From positions 1 to 26,115 of IMG/VR virus record IMGVR_UViG_3300027704_001882: DNA of 26,115 nt; one strand, written 5' to 3'. The position numbers and the translations under genes are program-made. The first letter of the stretch is position 1. Each line of letters opens with the position of its first letter. Below are positions 473-15,330 of the stretch, piece after piece. The notes under the pieces are model-generated. The model was not told where the DNA came from and did not search any database. It worked only from the letters and a program-made list of their open reading frames with translations. The DNA is from a virus.

Positions 473-657
473 GTAACTTCTCCAGTGATTAGTTGTTTTA
501 CTTGGTGGTCTACTTCCACGCAGACCGATCTGATCGACGTGTAATCTTTGTGACGTATGCCTCTGGTCTTGATGCGAAGTGCAACTGAAACCCAGAAGCG
601 CATGTCTCTTCGAGGGTGTAAGAAATACCATTCCGTCCTCACCTTGACCCGCTTCAC
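469..657 (-). CDS. Small basic hypothetical protein (62 aa), GTG start
   Basis: I do not recognise this protein. It is 62 residues, rich in Arg, Lys, Val and aromatic residues in its N-terminal half, with no membrane segment and no Cys pair. It begins at a GTG codon that overlaps the TGA stop of the CobT-like gene (GTGA), and its own TGA overlaps the ATG of the next gene (ATGA). Being overlapped at both ends in the same operon is the main evidence that it is a real gene. It is expected to be made by coupled translation with the vWA protein, but nothing in its sequence shows a role. Confidence 0.65.
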   Translation of the reverse strand: MKRVKVRTEWYFLHPRRDMRFWVSVALRIKTRGIRHKDYTSIRSVCVEVDHQVKQLITGEVT

Positions 658-2507
658 ACCACATCCAACAGCTTGCGGTTATCGACAGTGAACCTGTCAC
701 CTAGCAGTGCTTTGGATAGCTGATCGAGGGCTGAACCTGCCAAGTCTGACAGGTCTCTAACGACGGTGTACTTGGGATAGAAACGCTCGACTGAGTCATC
801 AACGATACCGATGCCGATGATGTCAGTCCCTGCTTTGACCGCATTATCTACAGCCTTACGTGTGTATCGTGAGATATTCTTATGGCAACCTGAAGACGCA
901 GGTGAACCGTCCGATAAGACGAGCATCACATGTCGTGACTCTTGACGAGCGGCAAGACGATGCTGTGTCTTAGCGATAGCGTCACCGTCTGCGTTATCCC
1001 ACAGGTTCATGTGCTTGATACCTGCAATAGCACCCTTGGCCTCGAACAATCTCTCTTCGAACTGCTTGAAGATAAACATGTGCAGGGGTGCTGACCTGTC
1101 GTACTCAACACCTTCACGTTTGCATGACACACCACCAAAGTTATTGGTGAACCCTAGTATCTCGTACTTGATACCTGCACTGTCGATGGATTCGGCAAGG
1201 GCAACAACACACTGCTGAGCCAGACCAATCTTGTTTGCACCACCCATGCTACCGCTCAGGTCAACGAGTATGGACACGGCGGTATCAACCTCGGCCTTGT
1301 CTGAGCGCAACTTGAACACGTTGGCACGACCACCGAATGCTTGGACGAACCGTCGTGTATCAAGGCGTCCATCCTCTCGGCCATAATCCCAGTCACGTTT
1401 CTGCTGAGCGAGTAGTGAACGCATCAACTTGGAACGCATGGAATTGATCTCACCTGCCATGGATGCAACGGCCTTGTCGTAGTCCGCTGGCTCACACATG
1501 CTAAACATATGTTGGTGAGCGGATTCGATTGTGCGGTGATGCCATTCATCCTTCTGATCGTATGTAATGTAGGTGAACCCATCCTCAGACGTGGTGAGTT
1601 CGCCATCATCCATCATACGAGTGATAGCTTCGGACATTTCTGGGTCGTAGGGCTCAACTTCTTCTTCGTATGTTTCTGTATCGGGAGCACTGACATCAGT
1701 ATCGGGAAGGCTTGGACGTCCATCGTCCGCATCACCGTCTGAGCTATCTTCATCAGCTCCGACGTCGTCGCTCCCTGCTTCTGTATCGTCATCACTATCG
1801 CCTCGCTCTGAGGTTTTTCCTTCTCCATCACCGCTATCTTCACCATCTTCTCGTTCTTCTGGCTCATCTTTATAGTCTCCATCGTTGAGTGATTGTTCGA
1901 CCACACGAGCGAGTGCGATAACGTCACTCGTACTGTGGCAATGATCGAGTGCGGCTACCCACTTGGTAACCTGTCGTTTAAGATCGTCTGGCATGAGATC
2001 GAGGCATGGCTGGCACGTCTTGCCGCCATAGTCCTTGCGACCCTCAAGCGTAACCATCATTGGTGCAACTGCCATATGCTTGTCTGCGTAGTCAGGATTC
2101 TCACGCATGTGCTGCAAGAACTGATCATTGACTGAGTCAGACGTGGCTATAAGATTGACTACTGCACCGGGATAATCTTCGATAACCCGGCGTTCCATCC
2201 ACACGTCTTCGAGACAATTCCATATGGGCTTGAGCGTCTTGTTGCCACGACGATGTGCATCATTGGCCATACGCAGAACTGCATCTTGGTCTGTATGCTT
2301 CACGTGACCTGCCTCGTGGTCTGTGTAACCACGCAAGATCATGCGTTGCTGTTCAGTCATCACGCTATTCTTGTCGATAGCAGGTAGCGTAATGATCTTG
2401 CCGTTGGTCTTGGCTTGGTTGCCAGAAAACACAACCTTGATGTCCTCCTTGCGACCAAACACTGCGGATGACTTAGTAACTTCGTTTACGAATGTATCCG
2501 TTTTCAT
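654..2507 (-). CDS. cobT: CobT-like protein: HEAGH motif plus C-terminal von Willebrand A domain
   Basis: 617 residues from ATG at 2507, chosen because GGGGGT lies upstream and the ATG follows the stop of the CobS-like gene by 4 nt; a longer reading frame would run into that gene. Order of parts: a globular N-terminal half with HEAGH at 64-68 (HExxH form) and CLEDVWMERR at 98-107; a Cys pair (C165, C168); a very acidic Asp/Glu/Ser linker at about 208-290; then RDWDYGREDGRLDTRR and a vWA domain at about 405-610 with the MIDAS loop DLSGSMGG (D416), DNADGDAI and VLSDGSP. The C-terminal half follows the CobT_C pattern of aerobic cobaltochelatase subunit CobT closely. In that enzyme CobT works with the AAA+ subunit CobS, and here the neighbour is CobS-like. 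No CobN is in view, so the true substrate is unknown. The HExxH motif could bind zinc, which is inference. Confidence 0.85.
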   Translation of the reverse strand: MKTDTFVNEVTKSSAVFGRKEDIKVVFSGNQAKTNGKIITLPAIDKNSVMTEQQRMILRGYTDHEAGHVKHTDQDAVLRMANDAHRRGNKTLKPIWNCLEDVWMERRVIEDYPGAVVNLIATSDSVNDQFLQHMRENPDYADKHMAVAPMMVTLEGRKDYGGKTCQPCLDLMPDDLKRQVTKWVAALDHCHSTSDVIALARVVEQSLNDGDYKDEPEEREDGEDSGDGEGKTSERGDSDDDTEAGSDDVGADEDSSDGDADDGRPSLPDTDVSAPDTETYEEEVEPYDPEMSEAITRMMDDGELTTSEDGFTYITYDQKDEWHHRTIESAHQHMFSMCEPADYDKAVASMAGEINSMRSKLMRSLLAQQKRDWDYGREDGRLDTRRFVQAFGGRANVFKLRSDKAEVDTAVSILVDLSGSMGGANKIGLAQQCVVALAESIDSAGIKYEILGFTNNFGGVSCKREGVEYDRSAPLHMFIFKQFEERLFEAKGAIAGIKHMNLWDNADGDAIAKTQHRLAARQESRHVMLVLSDGSPASSGCHKNISRYTRKAVDNAVKAGTDIIGIGIVDDSVERFYPKYTVVRDLSDLAGSALDQLSKALLGDRFTVDNRKLLDVV

Positions 2508-2511
2508 GTAA

Positions 2512-4359
2512 TTACCCCCATACTCGTTGGCTGATTGCTTTGAGCACCGCTCGGTCATTGACTGAAGCACGATCAAGTATCGTGGTAGCAATGGCTTCCT
2601 CGATGGCTTTCTTCTCGTCGGTGATGAAGCTCATGTAAGCTGTCATGGCCTGACCCAAGGACAAGAAACCACGTGGTGATATGGGTTGCATGACCTTGGA
2701 TTGAGTGAACGCTGTTAGGTGCTCGGTGATGTAGTTGTTAAGTTTTTCTGCATGGGCATCGGCTAACTTAGGCAGACGTGACTTGATTAGCTTCTTCCTG
2801 TCCGCTGGCTTGAGGTAGTCGACCTTGACCCACACGGTGAAGCGATCAAGGAACGCCATGCTCTGTGGCCTCGCACCTTGATACATTCCGTACTCGTCAC
2901 CTTGTCCGACAGTGTTGCCAGTAGCGAACATGCGGAAGAGCTTGTGAGGCTTGATCATACGACCACCATCCTCAGTAAGCATGAGGCCGTTACCTTCAGC
3001 AGCACGTTGTAAGACGTAAGCGATGTCAGGACGCACAAAGTCGATCTCGTCGAGGCATCCGATATACGGGCCAGACATCATCTGAGGTAAGATACCGTCG
3101 ACAAACTTGGACGTAGTCACACCACCCTCATTGGCTAAGACATCACGACCTATCAAATCCATACGAGTGATTTCACTGTCGAAGTTAACACGCATGAAAG
3201 GCCAGTTAAGACGTGCGGCAACTTGCTCGATCAACGTCGTCTTGCCTGTCCCTGTGTGACCGTGAAGATAGCAACGCTGATTAGTCATGACGGCGTAAAG
3301 CACACGCAATAACTCGAAGGGACGGAACACATAATCGTTGTCAACTTCTGGCACATGAGGGTGAACACCGTCCCACTCCCACGTTGGAACCTTGAAGCTG
3401 AACTCCTCCTTGCCACGTGTAAGACCGAACGCTCTCCACGCTTCTTGCGTCGACAACCTACCGCTTGGGATTGTACCGTCGTGCTTGGTCTCCTCCGATG
3501 CGGCTGTGATGGAAACAGCGGGTGTGGACTCTGCCTTGGCTAAGTCTTCAGTCAACGTGTTAATCGTGCCGATCATGTCGTTGATGGGTGGTAGCCCTGC
3601 CTGTGACAACGCGAGGTCGATAAGCGCACTATCAGCAGGTGGATTGAGTACGACAGCCTTGACTGGCTCCGTTTCTGACTCACCGCCATCGTCTTGCAGA
3701 CGTTCGATAATTATCTTGTAGGAACCATGATCTTCAGACGACATCTGATCGAGTTGGAGGTCTGCCTCGGTGCGAGGGGCATCCTTCTCCTCACGAATAC
3801 CAACGAGCGACTTAACACCATTGGCAGTGGCTTCGTCTGTGGCGTCTGAGAGTTGTTTCCAGATGTTCATCTCGTTAATGAAGCCGTTTATGCGGCAGTA
3901 ATCGTAAGCGTTAAGTGCGGCTGTTAAGCTCATAGTTTTCTTCTCCAAGGGTGTTGATTTTAGGTGTGCGGCTAGTACCGCTTCGAAATCTCTGGACTCT
4001 GCGAAGCGATGCTTTCCGCCTCTGCCAGTTGCACAAAGGGAAATGTCCGCTATGCAATTCAACGTACCATCTACGATGCCGAGCACATGGCCATCCTCAT
4101 AGATCGAATGTGGATGGTCGCTCTCAATGAGCAGTGCCATCGTTGTGATCGTCAGGTTGTCGCGAATAACCGATATGGTTGGTCGCTTGGCTACGCTAGG
4201 TGGTAGCGATTCGAGCATTGCATCCTTGACGGCGAAACTGATCCGTCTCTGGGTTTCATCGCTGACTGACTCGGTGAACAGCTTACGAATAGCCGCTCTC
4301 CTCTGCGAGAAGTCGTCGATATCCAGACATGAACGCAGCTTTGTTTGCGTTGGGGTCAT
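2512..4359 (-). CDS. cobS: CobS-like AAA+ ATPase (MoxR-type)
   Basis: 615 residues from ATG at 4359, chosen because GGAG lies 8 nt upstream. The AAA+ module fills the C-terminal half: GHTGTGKT Walker A at 367-374, VNFDSEITRMDLIGRD after it, Walker B CLDEID at 435-440, sensor 1 FATGNT at 478-483, an arginine in FLDRF (R506) and sensor 2 SPRG at 561-564. The P-loop surroundings (EQVAARLNWP, then DS, then DLIG) are those of CobS, the ATPase ring subunit of aerobic cobaltochelatase. Residues 1-330 are an extra N-terminal region I do not recognise; CobS itself is about 330 residues, so this protein is nearly twice as long. An in-frame ATG at codon 143 (3933) carries its own GGAGAAG, so a shorter form is possible. 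The vWA partner follows after 4 nt. Likely acts in the cytoplasm as an ATP-driven remodelling ring on a target presented by the vWA protein. Confidence 0.85.
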   Translation of the reverse strand: MTPTQTKLRSCLDIDDFSQRRAAIRKLFTESVSDETQRRISFAVKDAMLESLPPSVAKRPTISVIRDNLTITTMALLIESDHPHSIYEDGHVLGIVDGTLNCIADISLCATGRGGKHRFAESRDFEAVLAAHLKSTPLEKKTMSLTAALNAYDYCRINGFINEMNIWKQLSDATDEATANGVKSLVGIREEKDAPRTEADLQLDQMSSEDHGSYKIIIERLQDDGGESETEPVKAVVLNPPADSALIDLALSQAGLPPINDMIGTINTLTEDLAKAESTPAVSITAASEETKHDGTIPSGRLSTQEAWRAFGLTRGKEEFSFKVPTWEWDGVHPHVPEVDNDYVFRPFELLRVLYAVMTNQRCYLHGHTGTGKTTLIEQVAARLNWPFMRVNFDSEITRMDLIGRDVLANEGGVTTSKFVDGILPQMMSGPYIGCLDEIDFVRPDIAYVLQRAAEGNGLMLTEDGGRMIKPHKLFRMFATGNTVGQGDEYGMYQGARPQSMAFLDRFTVWVKVDYLKPADRKKLIKSRLPKLADAHAEKLNNYITEHLTAFTQSKVMQPISPRGFLSLGQAMTAYMSFITDEKKAIEEAIATTILDRASVNDRAVLKAISQRVWG

Positions 4360-4390
4360 AGTAATCTCCATTGGTTTGAAGGATACGCTT

Positions 4391-4428
4391 GGTGTCCAAT
4401 GTATAACGAACGATACACACCAGACACC
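4391..4428 (-). promoter_or_regulatory. Imperfect hairpin upstream of the CobS-like gene
   Basis: The 82-nt gap before the ATPase gene contains GGTGTC (arm 6 nt) pairing with GACACC, enclosing a second pair TGTAT / ATACA around a 9-nt loop. No T-run follows on the minus strand, so it does not look like an intrinsic terminator. It could be an operator, an RNA processing site or a leader structure. Only the inverted repeat is seen; the role is inference. Confidence 0.3.
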
Positions 4429-4441
4429 TTTAGCGCAAGGT

Positions 4442-4825
4442 TTAGTGTTCGGAGGGCAAATAGAGCGTGAACTCACCGAACTCGTTGGGTGCTACCCACA
4501 ACTGAAATTCACCGTTTACACGGTCAAAATCGAAGTCTGTGAATGGCACGTTGATGCTGTTGAGGATTTCGTCGTTGCCGTCCTCAAGTATGAGGCAAGC
4601 CCCTTCGCCATCCGGCACGAGCTTGGCTACGACGAAGCTAGTGTCCTTGCCGTCCTTGCGAAGTTCACGAACGTACAAGTCGATGTCCGTCATGAGCCAG
4701 AACGCATCCATTTCTGTGGCTACGTGCGTGACACCTTCGGACATGATGCTTGACGTTAAGCCAAACTTGGCGAAGTCTATTGAACCCGTGAACTGCGAGA
4801 GATTAAGTTGAGTTGAAGTTTGCAT
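4442..4825 (-). CDS. DUF6876 family protein
   Basis: 127 residues. The ATG at 4825 is preceded by AGGAG with good spacing. The sequence shows LSQFTGS near the N-terminus, EGVTHVATEMDAFWLM in the first third, LILEDGNDEIL and INVPFTDFDFD in the second half, and FTLYLPSEH at the very end. This succession (LSQFTGS, DGV.yLAE..GAYWL, EDGN, i.FTDFpLd, LPSE) is what I know as DUF6876, a family of small soluble proteins found in phages and other mobile elements with no established function. Length fits the family, so the gene appears intact. It lies between the small membrane-protein cluster and the AAA+/vWA pair on the same strand, and may be expressed with them. No membrane segment is seen. Confidence 0.8.
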   Translation of the reverse strand: MQTSTQLNLSQFTGSIDFAKFGLTSSIMSEGVTHVATEMDAFWLMTDIDLYVRELRKDGKDTSFVVAKLVPDGEGACLILEDGNDEILNSINVPFTDFDFDRVNGEFQLWVAPNEFGEFTLYLPSEH

Positions 4826-10457: not shown

Positions 10458-10894
10458 TGACGAAAAAGGTATTACAAAAGAATGTCGATCCCTCTGTCAC
10501 CGCCTATGTTGGTGCTGTCGAGAGCGACATGCTGTCCTCAATAAATCAACTCAAAGAATTGATTTTAGAGCAAGGCAAGCAAGTATCGGAATTAAGAAAA
10601 GATTTACTGAAGGTGCAACAAAGTTCCGACTCTACAGACAGCAGCATCGCAGCAGTAGAGCTGAAAGCTAAGCGTCTTATAGATAAGGCACTTGGCGGCA
10701 GAGATCATGAAGACGGATCATGGAAGGAAGAGGTTCAAGAAGCCACCTTAGCAATAGCGGCTCGCGTTGGGGCTTTTGAAAAACGAATGGACACTATGGA
10801 GGGCAAGCTCACTCGTTACTTCGATAAGGAAAAGTACGCGATAACCAAGGCTATGATCGCCAAAGTAATTAGTGAGGAGAAGGTCAATGGCTGA
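10457..10894 (+). CDS. Coiled-coil hypothetical protein (145 aa)
   Basis: 145 residues, starting at an ATG that overlaps the portal stop (TAATG). The protein is charged and strongly helical: SINQLKELILEQGKQVSELRKDL forms a clear heptad pattern near residues 28-50, and a second helical part (AFEKRMDTMEGKLTRYFDKEKYAI) lies near the C-terminus, separated by a Gly/Asp turn (GGRDHEDGS). I do not recognise a family. Being between portal and fibre genes it could be a connector accessory, a fibre-attachment spacer or an assembly factor. The end overlaps the start of the fibre gene by 8 nt. Confidence 0.8.
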   Translation: MTKKVLQKNVDPSVTAYVGAVESDMLSSINQLKELILEQGKQVSELRKDLLKVQQSSDSTDSSIAAVELKAKRLIDKALGGRDHEDGSWKEEVQEATLAIAARVGAFEKRMDTMEGKLTRYFDKEKYAITKAMIAKVISEEKVNG

Positions 10895-13004
10895 AACAAG
10901 ACCGATAGGTGAACAGCTAAGATTTCTATCATCCAAGACAGGAGCGCATATACTTGATGACTACTTGGAAGCGTCAGAGAAAGGCACTCGTACCCTTAGC
11001 GATATGCTTGATGATTTATTTAATTCATCAGGTGTTTTCCAGTCCAGTCTATTCCAGTTTAGAGAAGACCCCTCTAATGCCGGAACATTTCAAGTTAGAG
11101 TTGGTCAGTTCGTTGGCGCAGACACAGGCTGGACTACCATTACCTTCACAGACTTCGCGGGATATGTCGCTGATGCTCTAACCTATAAGAATGCTGCGGA
11201 AGCAGCAAAGACCGCAGCCGAGAGTGCTCGTGATACTGCGCTGCCTGTCATAAATAATATTGCTGATGTGATAACCACGGCAGCAAATATTACGGATGTT
11301 AACACTGTAGCTGCACAAGCTACTGGTACTAAGACCTATGCGGTTACAGCCGCTGGCGGAAAGTTCTATTTAGACGGGACAATTAATCCAGCTCTAACTT
11401 TGAAAGAAGGGTTCACATACACCTTTGATCTTTCAGATAGCTCTTTATCCACACACCCTTTTAAACTTTCGTCATCCATAAGTGGCTCACCTCTATATAC
11501 AATAGGGGTCACAATTACTGGGACTCATGGTTCGGCTGGGGCTAAGATTGAGATAGTTGTTAATTCTGCCACGCCTAGAACACTTTACTACCTATGCACT
11601 TCACATTCAGGCATGGGTAACACCATCACTTCGCAGCAACACAACTTAGACCTTTTGGCGGCAATCAACGCTAAAATAACAACGGCTGCTAATGTCGTCG
11701 CTCCAGCAATAACAGACGTAATAACCGTAGCAAATAATGTTGTAGATATAGCTGCCGTTGCCTCAGATATTGTAGACGTGAATACCGTGGCGACATCTAT
11801 CGCGAATGTGGATTCCGTTGGAACAAATATTTCGGCAGTCACAACCGTTGCTAATACTGGCAATTTAACAAACATTACAACCGTCTCAAGTAATATAGCC
11901 CACGTCGGAACCGTCGCGTCCAACATTACAGGTGTACAAACAGCAGTAACAAACATTTCCGACATCAACACTGTGGCCTCAAACTTGGGCGCAAGTGGAA
12001 GCATTACAACTGTTTCAAATGCAATAGGCTCGGTTAACGTCACAGGAACAAACATCACAGCCGTACAGACCGTGGCCACTAACATAGCGGCGATAGTAAA
12101 CGTATCGACAGACTTGCTAGAGTCTATTTCAGAGATAGATACCGTTGCGGCTGCAATAGCGAATGTTAATGCAGTAGGCACAAACATAGCTTCGGTCACA
12201 ACTGTTGCCAACGCAGCAGCCCTTGCAAACATTAGCACTGTGGCAACAGGCATAGCGGATGTTAATTCCCTCGCATCAGTATCAGCAAAGATTGCTGCGT
12301 TAGCTGATGTTGAGGATGGTACAACTGCAACAGGTGCTATCACTGGTTTGTTTGCTGACCTAGCTACCATTCAATCCCTTGGCACTAACATCGCTGAGAT
12401 TGTCACCACATCAAACAACATAACATCAGTTATCGCCACGTCTGGAGCAATAACGAACATAAACCAACTTGCTCCTCACGTCGGAGCATCTGGAAACATC
12501 ACGTTGGTGGGCAATTCCATTGGTAATGTGAACGCGCTTGTTCCTCGTTTGGCAGATATACAAACAATTATTGCCGGGACAAATTTAAGCAACATTCAAA
12601 TAACAGCTCAAAATGCTACAGACATAGCTGCTGCTGCTGCAAATATTTCAGACATTGCGACAGCCGCTACTTATGTGACCCAGATTATTGAAGCTCCTCT
12701 ATTTGCAGCGGATGCAGAAAAGTACGCTGTACATGGCACTAACTCTACGTTCACAGACCGAAATGGGAACGTAAATTACTCAGCAAAACACTGGGCTTCT
12801 GTAGCACAGTCGGTGGGTAATGCTTTCGTAACTCTGCAAGGAGATGAGCGAAGCACGGGCGATACGGACGACATCACGGCCAACGGTGCGGCAGACTCTG
12901 TGAAATTCTTGGGTCTTGGCGGAACTAAGGTTCGTACCGATCAATCAACCAAGGAAGTTTATATAGATAGTCGCTCGGTGGCTATGGCAATAGCATTGGG
13001 GTAA
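10887..13004 (+). CDS. Tail fibre protein with cupredoxin-like domain and decapeptide repeats
   Basis: 705 residues from ATG at 10887 (GAGGAGAAGG upstream; an in-frame start five codons earlier lacks a site). Residues 1-92 form an anchor domain shared with the second fibre (YLEASEKGTRTL..., FQFREDPSNAG..., VGADTGW). A short helix with AAEAAKTAAESA follows. Two decapeptide units lie at 124-143. Residues about 147-248 look like a cupredoxin fold with THPFKL (H190) and YYLCTSHSGMG (C237, H240, M243), the His-Cys-His-Met set of type 1 copper sites. From about 262 to 600 the sequence is made of decapeptide units such as DIVDVNTVAT and SIANVDSVGT. The C-terminal 100 residues (TFTDRNGNVNYSAKHWA...) look like a globular tip. 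It should bind the host surface. Placement before the scaffold gene is unusual. Copper binding is inference. Confidence 0.85.
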   Translation: MAETRPIGEQLRFLSSKTGAHILDDYLEASEKGTRTLSDMLDDLFNSSGVFQSSLFQFREDPSNAGTFQVRVGQFVGADTGWTTITFTDFAGYVADALTYKNAAEAAKTAAESARDTALPVINNIADVITTAANITDVNTVAAQATGTKTYAVTAAGGKFYLDGTINPALTLKEGFTYTFDLSDSSLSTHPFKLSSSISGSPLYTIGVTITGTHGSAGAKIEIVVNSATPRTLYYLCTSHSGMGNTITSQQHNLDLLAAINAKITTAANVVAPAITDVITVANNVVDIAAVASDIVDVNTVATSIANVDSVGTNISAVTTVANTGNLTNITTVSSNIAHVGTVASNITGVQTAVTNISDINTVASNLGASGSITTVSNAIGSVNVTGTNITAVQTVATNIAAIVNVSTDLLESISEIDTVAAAIANVNAVGTNIASVTTVANAAALANISTVATGIADVNSLASVSAKIAALADVEDGTTATGAITGLFADLATIQSLGTNIAEIVTTSNNITSVIATSGAITNINQLAPHVGASGNITLVGNSIGNVNALVPRLADIQTIIAGTNLSNIQITAQNATDIAAAAANISDIATAATYVTQIIEAPLFAADAEKYAVHGTNSTFTDRNGNVNYSAKHWASVAQSVGNAFVTLQGDERSTGDTDDITANGAADSVKFLGLGGTKVRTDQSTKEVYIDSRSVAMAIALG
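11670..12686 (+). repeat. Decapeptide repeat region within the fibre gene
   Basis: The coded protein shows many ten-residue units of form (N/D/S)I-x-x-(V/I)-x-x-V-(A/G)-x, for example NIAHVGTVAS, NITGVQTAVT and NISDINTVAS in direct succession. Hydrophobic residues recur with spacing 3, 3, 4. The DNA itself is diverged, so this is a protein-level repeat of about 30 nt. Confidence 0.75.
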
Positions 13005-13343: not shown

Positions 13344-13573
13344 TGGCTAATGGATTTTATGAAGGCACAGCTCTAGCTGACCAAACATTCTACGGCTTCA
13401 AGCTGTATAAAACGGGCGATCTAAATGTCGATGTCATTAATGACGGGACGACACCAGTACGCCTTCCAGACGATAATATTATCGACCCAGAGGACTATAA
13501 GGCGTGGGTATGGTCTAAAGACACCATCACGTTCCGCTGGGATAACGGTCACTTACTAATGGAAATGATATGA
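13343..13573 (+). CDS. Small hypothetical protein of the fibre block (76 aa)
   Basis: 76 residues, acidic and aromatic, with FYGFKLYKTGDLNVDVINDG and IIDPEDYKAWVWSKDTITFRW. No membrane segment and no family that I recognise. It is overlapped at both ends: its ATG shares bases with the previous stop (TAATG) and its TGA with the next ATG (ATGA). This fixes it as part of the receptor-binding operon. It may be a small structural or adaptor protein of the fibre complex. Confidence 0.75.
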   Translation: MANGFYEGTALADQTFYGFKLYKTGDLNVDVINDGTTPVRLPDDNIIDPEDYKAWVWSKDTITFRWDNGHLLMEMI

Positions 13574-15330
13574 GCCAGATAATCGACTTAGGAAAACTAC
13601 GTTTCTATTTCGCGGGTGACTGGGATACCGCCACCACCTACGAGTTGAACGACATCGTAAAGTACGGTGGCAATATTTATGTGTACACATACGGGTTAAA
13701 AACTAGCACCCATCTCCCCACTGACAATACTTACTGGCAGTTGATGGTTGAGGGCTTTAAGTTCCAAGCAGTGTACGCGAATGCAACAGCATATCGAGTT
13801 GGAGATGGCGTTACCCACGGTGGTAAAGTTTACATCTGTATTCTTGATAGCACAGGCAACACGCCCCCAAATGCTACATATTGGTCGCTGTTTGCTGACG
13901 GTATTCAATGGGAAGGTGAGTATGTCAATTCTACCGCTTACCAGAAAAACGACATTGTGTCTTATGGCGGCAATGCTCTTTATATTTCCAAGATCGACAC
14001 AACAGGAAACCTACCTTCAGACGCTACCTATTGGGATGCGTTCATTAGTGGAATTAACGCAGAAGGTGTGTACAACGCAGCTACCGCTTATGTTAAAGGC
14101 GACATTGTTGCCTATGGTGGCAACCTCTACCGCGCCCTTACTGACACTACTGGCAACCTCCCTAGTGACGCATCCAAGTGGGTTGAGTTCCTTGGTGGTA
14201 TTAAGGCACGTGGTGCATACAACGCAGCGACAGCTTATGCGCTAAACGATGTCGTAAATTATGGTGGCTCACTATACCGAGCAAAGAATGAAACAACGGG
14301 TAATCTTCCTTCAGTTACAGCTAACTGGGAGCTTTATGTAGTAGGCGCAAATTATCGCGCTGCATATGCAAACGCCACAGCATACGTCTTAAATGACGTC
14401 GTAACTTATGGTGCAAGTGTTTATATCGCAAAAGGCGATACCACAGGAAACCTTCCGACAGTCACAGCTAATTGGGACGTGTATGTTTCAGGTATTAGCC
14501 CAGAAGGTGCATACGACAATACATCGGCATACACGCCTAACGATGTGGTGTCTTACGGTGGTTCGCTTTATAAATGTATTCTCGAAAGCACAGGCAATCT
14601 GCCTACTGACGCAACCTACTGGTCGGTATTCCAAAGCGGCATTAACCCACGTGGTAACTGGGCAGCATCGACTGATTACTTGCCCGGAGATGTCGCGGTC
14701 TATGGCGGCAACACTTTCCGCGTATTAGTAGCTCACGCATCCACAGTTTTCGCAACAGACTTAGCCGCATCCAAGTGGCAGAAGTACAATGGCGGAATTG
14801 ATTGGAAGGGCAACTGGGCAACGTCTACAGCTTTCAAGGTTGATGACATAGCGAAGAATGGTGTCTCGTCTTATATCGCCCTTGTTGACCACACGTCTGG
14901 CACATTCGCAACAGACCTTGCAGCAGGTAAATGGCAAGCGTTTGCTGAAGGCGGATCAAATACTATCCCAAGCCAAACTGGTAATGCAGGTAAAGCCCTT
15001 GTTACAGACGGCACAAACTATAACTGGGCGGACGTTGCAACTACTTGGTCTGCGAAGTCTGCGGACTACACGGCAGTTGCTGCCGATCATTTAATCGTCA
15101 ACACGGCGTCTGCCGCAGTCACAATAACATTACCAGCATCTCCGGCAACAGGTGATGAGGTTCACATGGTAGATGGTGCGGGGAGTTTTGCGACAAACAA
15201 CCTAACCGTTGCTCGCAATGGCAAAACAATTATGGGCTCAGCTACTGATATGACCGTTTCTGACAGCAATGTAGGGTTCGGTCTTGTTTACTACGCGGCC
15301 ACGACTGATTGGAGAATTATAGATGTCTAA
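13570..15330 (+). CDS. Tail protein with nine carbohydrate-binding-like repeats
   Basis: 586 residues. After a short N-terminus (MSQIIDLGKLRF) there are nine repeats of about 49 residues up to about residue 460, each with the pattern (G/A).Y..(A/S)TAY..(N/G)D(V/I)V.YGG..Y.......TGN.P.....W. The conserved aromatic residues, the GD or ND turn and the final Trp follow carbohydrate-binding modules of the CBM5/12 or chitin-binding type. The C-terminal module from about 475 (VNTASAAVTITLPASPATGD, then LTVARNGKTIMGS) resembles a beta-structured end domain of tail proteins. The gene overlaps its neighbours at both ends. A role in binding host polysaccharide is likely, by family resemblance. The repeats may stand side by side in a rod, giving avidity. 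Confidence 0.8.
   Translation: MSQIIDLGKLRFYFAGDWDTATTYELNDIVKYGGNIYVYTYGLKTSTHLPTDNTYWQLMVEGFKFQAVYANATAYRVGDGVTHGGKVYICILDSTGNTPPNATYWSLFADGIQWEGEYVNSTAYQKNDIVSYGGNALYISKIDTTGNLPSDATYWDAFISGINAEGVYNAATAYVKGDIVAYGGNLYRALTDTTGNLPSDASKWVEFLGGIKARGAYNAATAYALNDVVNYGGSLYRAKNETTGNLPSVTANWELYVVGANYRAAYANATAYVLNDVVTYGASVYIAKGDTTGNLPTVTANWDVYVSGISPEGAYDNTSAYTPNDVVSYGGSLYKCILESTGNLPTDATYWSVFQSGINPRGNWAASTDYLPGDVAVYGGNTFRVLVAHASTVFATDLAASKWQKYNGGIDWKGNWATSTAFKVDDIAKNGVSSYIALVDHTSGTFATDLAAGKWQAFAEGGSNTIPSQTGNAGKALVTDGTNYNWADVATTWSAKSADYTAVAADHLIVNTASAAVTITLPASPATGDEVHMVDGAGSFATNNLTVARNGKTIMGSATDMTVSDSNVGFGLVYYAATTDWRIIDV
13603..14956 (+). repeat. Nine tandem repeats of about 150 bp coding for CBM-like modules
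   Basis: Repeat starts can be followed by FAGDWDTATTY, FQAVYANATAY, WEGEYVNSTAY, AEGVYNAATAY, ARGAYNAATAY, YRAAYANATAY, PEGAYDNTSAY, PRGNWAASTDY and WKGNWATSTAF. Units 4 and 5 are the most alike; unit 1 and the last two are the most diverged and have longer final loops (VFATDLAASKW, TFATDLAAGKW). Confidence 0.85.

Follow-up and report, generated by a model that had tools for sequence, protein, structure and literature searches.

A predicted cupredoxin-fold domain with a putative type 1 copper site within the repeat rod of a phage tail fibre

The window analysed in the present study, i.e. the whole stretch of DNA, is a complete IMG/VR virus record of 26,115 bases (IMGVR_UViG_3300027704_001882). 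Its TerL shared 81% identity with the terminase of Roseobacter phage CRP-810 across 99% of its length, and the order of the terminase, portal, small ORF, and fibre genes was common to the record and this phage. The presence of cobS and cobT has been reported in the proposed CRP-810-type phage family (PMC11288001). In the window, a gene for a CobT-like VWA protein (654-2591, minus strand; assigned to the cobaltochelatase CobT subunit in PHROGs) was located beside one for a CobS/MoxR-like ATPase (2515-4476, minus strand; assigned to porphyrin biosynthesis). Because of the TerL identity, the shared gene order, and the occurrence of cobS and cobT as reported for that family, the record most likely represents a member of the CRP-810-type phages, as judged from its sequence.

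The fibre gene adjoins the portal and terminase genes (Table 1). Its ATG start at 10887 was supported by homologues that share the N-terminus MAETRPIG, and the product matched tail-fibre and baseplate families in PHROGs. The N-terminal region of approximately 120 residues is presumably the part that attaches to the virion. Directly downstream, the window encodes another fibre-like protein, in which CBM_5_12 carbohydrate-binding repeats occur nine times (13570-15330, plus strand; Pfam E 5e-34). An ORF of 260 aa on the strand opposite the fibre (11588-12370) was regarded as a by-product of the repeats.

An earlier note on this DNA described a cupredoxin-like domain inserted into a repeat rod. 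A domain of this type was located at the proposed site, but the range of 11328-11636 that had been assigned to it corresponds to residues 148-250, which is one to two residues off the residues 147-248 quoted with it. Decapeptide repeats were present on both sides of the domain, as described: identity at a lag of ten residues was 0.50 at residues 121-146 (a short stretch, for which the figure has no shuffle control) and 0.25 at residues 251-470, against a mean of 0.12 and a maximum of 0.195 in 2,000 shuffles, and this signal did not occur within the domain. Weaker repeats continued beyond the downstream rod to approximately residue 600, and the fibre was of low complexity outside the domain. 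When residues 1-300 were modelled using AlphaFold2, a confident domain (pLDDT of at least about 90 per ten-residue block) was flanked by low-confidence helical segments at residues 90-142 and 252-299.

Table 1. Positions of the fibre gene, its rod segments, the predicted domain, and the putative copper ligands in the window
Feature	Position	Strand	Basis or remark
Tail fibre gene, 705 aa	10887..13004	+	Translation, PHROGs tail fibre matches, synteny with CRP-810 gp57 'tail fiber'
Decapeptide repeats before the domain (residues 124-143), a predicted helical rod	11256..11315	+	Lag-10 identity, low-confidence helix
Predicted cupredoxin-fold domain, residues 147-250	11325..11636	+	AlphaFold2 model, PDB matches are cupredoxins
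H190, putative first Cu ligand, T-H190-PFKL	11454..11456	+	In 98% of 57 representatives; pairs with plastocyanin ligand His
C237, putative Cu thiolate ligand	11595..11597	+	In 96% of 57 representatives
H240, putative Cu ligand	11604..11606	+	In 96% of 57 representatives
M243, putative axial Cu ligand	11613..11615	+	In 96% of 57 representatives; H-x2-M or H-x3-M loops
Rod of decapeptide repeats after the domain, about residues 275-455	11709..12251	+	Lag-10 identity, regular I-x-x-V-x-T-V-A-x-N units

The four residues H190, C237, H240, and M243 were all in frame in the fibre translation and followed one another in the order of His, Cys, His, and Met with a C-x(n)-H-x(n)-M loop, which is the arrangement in type 1 copper proteins. 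C237 was the only Cys in the 705-residue fibre, and the chance of finding His at +3 and Met at +6 from it was approximately 5e-5, a figure that considers fibre composition and excludes the fold and conservation. The spacing between the first His and the Cys was mostly 45-51 across the relatives and 47 in the window fibre, which is also the spacing in plastocyanin, and the short C-x2-H-x2-M loop is shared with amicyanin. In classical type 1 copper proteins, the first His ligand is mostly followed by Asn. This feature of plastocyanin, azurin, and amicyanin was not found in the window fibre, which has HPF at this point, and Pro directly followed the first His in 120 out of 130 domains. Because Pro occupies the place of the classical Asn, the putative copper site may have an unusual potential or affinity.

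A model of the domain was built by AlphaFold2 from an alignment of 58 relatives. The cupredoxin-like character suspected in the earlier note was borne out by this structure prediction: the model was a confident β-sandwich (pLDDT 96.9, pTM 0.89) of the Greek-key type that superposed on cupredoxins, which were its best PDB matches. In a Foldseek search against the PDB, rusticyanin and Cu nitrite reductase ranked at the top, plastocyanin, amicyanin, and laccases also ranked high, and cupredoxins and laccases dominated the matches. VIA-align with rusticyanin yielded Z values of 8.8-9.8 and an rmsd of 2.0 Å over 89 residues. Among the BFVD matches of the model, those with names were mostly cyanophage structural proteins. 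Giant-virus 'beta-sandwich proteins' from Marseillevirus LCMAC201 and Pithoviruses (A0A481YVH3, A0A481Z7Q7, and A0A481Z6J5) also matched the model in BFVD with E of about 1e-6.

No match to the window domain was obtained with Pfam and NCBIfam models. The domain did not reach the gathering cut-off of Pfam PF00127 (Copper-bind), which was the commonest sub-threshold Pfam match of its relatives (9/58, best E 0.0013); sub-threshold matches to PF25489 were also noted. Sequence profiles agreed with the predicted fold, but below significance. In a profile-profile comparison with genomic PF00127 proteins, the Cys/His loops were aligned at P 1.7e-5 and a probability of 78%. An alignment with plastocyanin paired the Cys/His loop as well as the first His, at an insignificant E-value. 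Profile searches of the PDB returned cupredoxins mixed with antibody chains, again at insignificant E-values, and a single-sequence search of the PDB gave weak matches to a haem-binding protein only. Since the profile E-values were insignificant and antibody chains were mixed in, the sequence does not by itself prove membership of the cupredoxins. We judged the window domain to represent a real cupredoxin-fold family. The superposition on cupredoxins and the paired ligands are indirect indications that the four residues would converge on one metal site.

Conservation was counted in a ligand-masked scan, the sole seed of which was TYxF[DK][QLV][SAD]D[SN][ST], and a scan seeded on ligand-containing peptides was left out of the counts. 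The masked scan detected at least 549 relatives. Among the matches listed, all four ligands were present in 81 of 85 untruncated distinct domains (H plus C-x2-H-x2-M in 56 and C-x2-H-x3-M in 25), and the other four (L102, L144, L154, and L155) were of a single type that retained the first His without the C, H, and M. In genome contigs searched with non-ligand seed patterns, the matched domain had the full set at all 38 loci, and L204 had a second domain with an incomplete set. A third scan, in which only the N-terminal 142 residues of the fibre served as the query, revealed the cupredoxin domain at the same position in 25 out of 25 close relatives, and the untruncated ones had the full ligand set, except for L234 and L235.

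The pooled domains of the scans, among the matches listed, were clustered at 70% identity, which resulted in 57 representatives. The four ligands were intact in 55 of these sequences of ≤70% identity to each other; the loop was C-x2-H-x2-M in 43 and C-x2-H-x3-M in 12. Conservation of the ligand columns was 96-98%, among the best in the domain; only the seed motif, together with a Gly and a Tyr (95%) beside the loop, scored about as high, and the residues between the ligands were variable (CTNHSGM, CQYHSAM, CAYHRYM, and CTVHGNGM). Frequent loss of ligands, which the earlier note had named as evidence against its proposal, was not observed; loss was rare, at 2 of the 57 representatives and 4 of the 85 masked-scan domains among the matches listed. 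The proposal of a cupredoxin-like domain that lies in a repeat rod and has every type 1 ligand is supported by the fold prediction, by sub-threshold profile matches that pair ligand with ligand, and by conservation in scans unable to select for the ligands.

The C-x2-H-x3-M variant of the loop, such as CTVHGNGM, was found in L099, L105, L228-L232, and others, and we know of no characterised cupredoxin with this loop length. In L102, L144, L154, L155, L234, and L235, the domain was kept and the Cys/His/Met loop was replaced by sequences such as YYYSSGGGT and YYNQTASGYGG. These site-less relatives are natural controls.

Similar to amicyanin, plastocyanin, and pseudoazurin (PF00127), the window domain combines a cupredoxin fold with the order of His, Cys-x2-His, and Met. 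These type 1 proteins are free periplasmic or lumenal carriers, whereas the window domain is part of a phage structural protein; the phage family also differs from them in the Pro after the first His, in the existence of the C-x2-H-x3-M loop, and in that the window domain had no significant match to PF00127. The Cys-His-Met loop of rusticyanin is longer. Rusticyanin was the best structural match (2cak, 2cal, and 1rcy; 21-24% identity to the domain), but is a larger, free electron carrier, while the window domain sits in a fibre. SAR86 and marine archaeal proteins (L190, 5764-6309; L197; L195; and L186) contain the same domain with all four ligands; they are cellular and, by eye, have signal or lipoprotein-like N-termini, in contrast to the virion fibre of the window.

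A metal site in a tail fibre has also been proposed for T4 gp37 and Alteromonas phage R22Y, and iron at HxH sites is known in tail fibres (PMC11705849). The iron sites of T4 gp37 and R22Y lie between the chains of the trimer, whereas the putative site in the window would lie inside one globular domain. The His residues of the window fibre are at positions 21, 190, 214, 240, 252, 339, 531, 616, and 635, none of which are two apart, and an iron-binding fibre of the HxH type was rejected because the fibre has no HxH motif.

Relatives of the domain were found in 344 phage records. Nearly all of these were of cyanophages, a few were of phages of SAR11 and OM43, and some were of marine or uncultured phages. 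Viral contigs with relatives numbered in the hundreds, and the domain also occurred in some secreted proteins encoded by marine bacteria and archaea. The phage groups that carry it include Kyanoviridae, Autographiviridae, and Aurunvirus, and its other host proteins are T7-type fibres (L187), T4-type baseplate and fibre proteins, and cellular secreted proteins. This occurrence in varied fibre, baseplate, and secreted proteins, together with the position between repeats, forms the pattern of an exchangeable module. CRP-810 gp57 (OR671924) has the same gene position, N-terminal domain, and type of repeat rod as the window fibre, but is without the cupredoxin domain, and L234 and L235 are orthologous fibres that keep the domain without the C, H, and M. 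Because the CRP-810 fibre is without the module and L234 and L235 are without the site, the domain is, in terms of these sequence comparisons, an accessory module. Some relatives retain it without the site, so that it is also of use without copper.

Taken together, we consider it probable that the virion fibre carries, between stretches of its repeat rod, a cupredoxin domain with a putative type 1 copper site. Considering the sequences and the model, this cupredoxin-fold family is predicted, as the most likely case, to bind copper in the virion. The four residues likely form a type 1 site that binds a single copper ion in each chain, and a trimeric fibre would then probably contain three. Regarding its role, we tentatively suggest that the module is a shaft-mounted surface that contacts the host envelope or the surroundings, the ligand loops of which may be stabilised by the metal. 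In a protein assembled in the reducing cytoplasm, the metal may act in place of a disulphide. Copper would be taken up on or after lysis, and redox chemistry would not be required. As a point against this reading, copper is scarce in the cytoplasm, so that the fibre could leave the cell metal-free or with zinc. A contact surface was ranked above a copper receptor or an obligatory redox function because the module is accessory, is located on the shaft, occurs with diverse hosts, and is sometimes site-less.

The domain may instead be an adhesin with a cupredoxin fold, in which the His/Cys/Met cluster binds Zn or Fe or forms a metal-free, packed structural core. The identity of a metal cannot be told from the sequence, and some relatives keep the domain after the loss of C, H, and M; however, the His-Cys-His-Met set and its spacing are the signature of type 1 copper, no internal disulphide is possible with a lone Cys, and the ligands equal the fold-core residues in conservation, with variable positions in between, which makes this explanation unlikely. 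It is slightly less probable still that bound copper helps the virion to dock on copper-uptake or copper-handling proteins of the host, in analogy to the 'Ferrojan/Trojan Horse' idea for iron. Both iron at the HxH sites of fibres and the idea of a receptor have been published (PMC11705849), and the present domain, which is presumably on the virion exterior, is mainly found in phages of oligotrophic ocean bacteria. Its position within the shaft, away from the tip, and the orthologous fibres without the module or the site argue against docking of this kind, and hosts as diverse as cyanobacteria, SAR11, and OM43 make a single shared copper receptor unlikely. An equally low probability was assigned to a redox-active site, by which the type 1 copper of the virion exchanges electrons, scavenges radicals, or senses the redox state of the host: electron-transfer proteins have this ligand set, and its four residues are kept together, but the surroundings of the fibre gene showed no gene for a redox partner, and classical members have a different residue behind the first His. 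A chance motif in a repeat protein, which the low complexity of the fibre outside the domain might suggest, is refuted by ligand conservation and is also opposed by the composition figure and the AlphaFold2 fold, and its probability is negligible.

Returning to the putative copper-binding module, we found neither a cupredoxin nor a copper site described for phage virions in the searchable literature, which included few subscription papers or bioRxiv preprints, and a cupredoxin appeared alongside cyanophage there only in the Borg paper. The cupredoxin kind is known and the phage-virion setting is new; the same possibly applies to the H-x3-M loop and to Pro after the first His. Because ligand loss is rare and site-less and module-less orthologues occur naturally, a role for the metal in attachment or stability is directly testable. 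A more doubtful, but conceivable extension is that several marine phage lineages carry dedicated virion cupredoxins, and that the type 1 copper of free particles affects attachment and joins the marine pool of copper ligands. Phages that infect abundant ocean bacteria widely carry this domain family, and, if their virions hold copper, these particles would be part of the copper-binding ligand pool of seawater.
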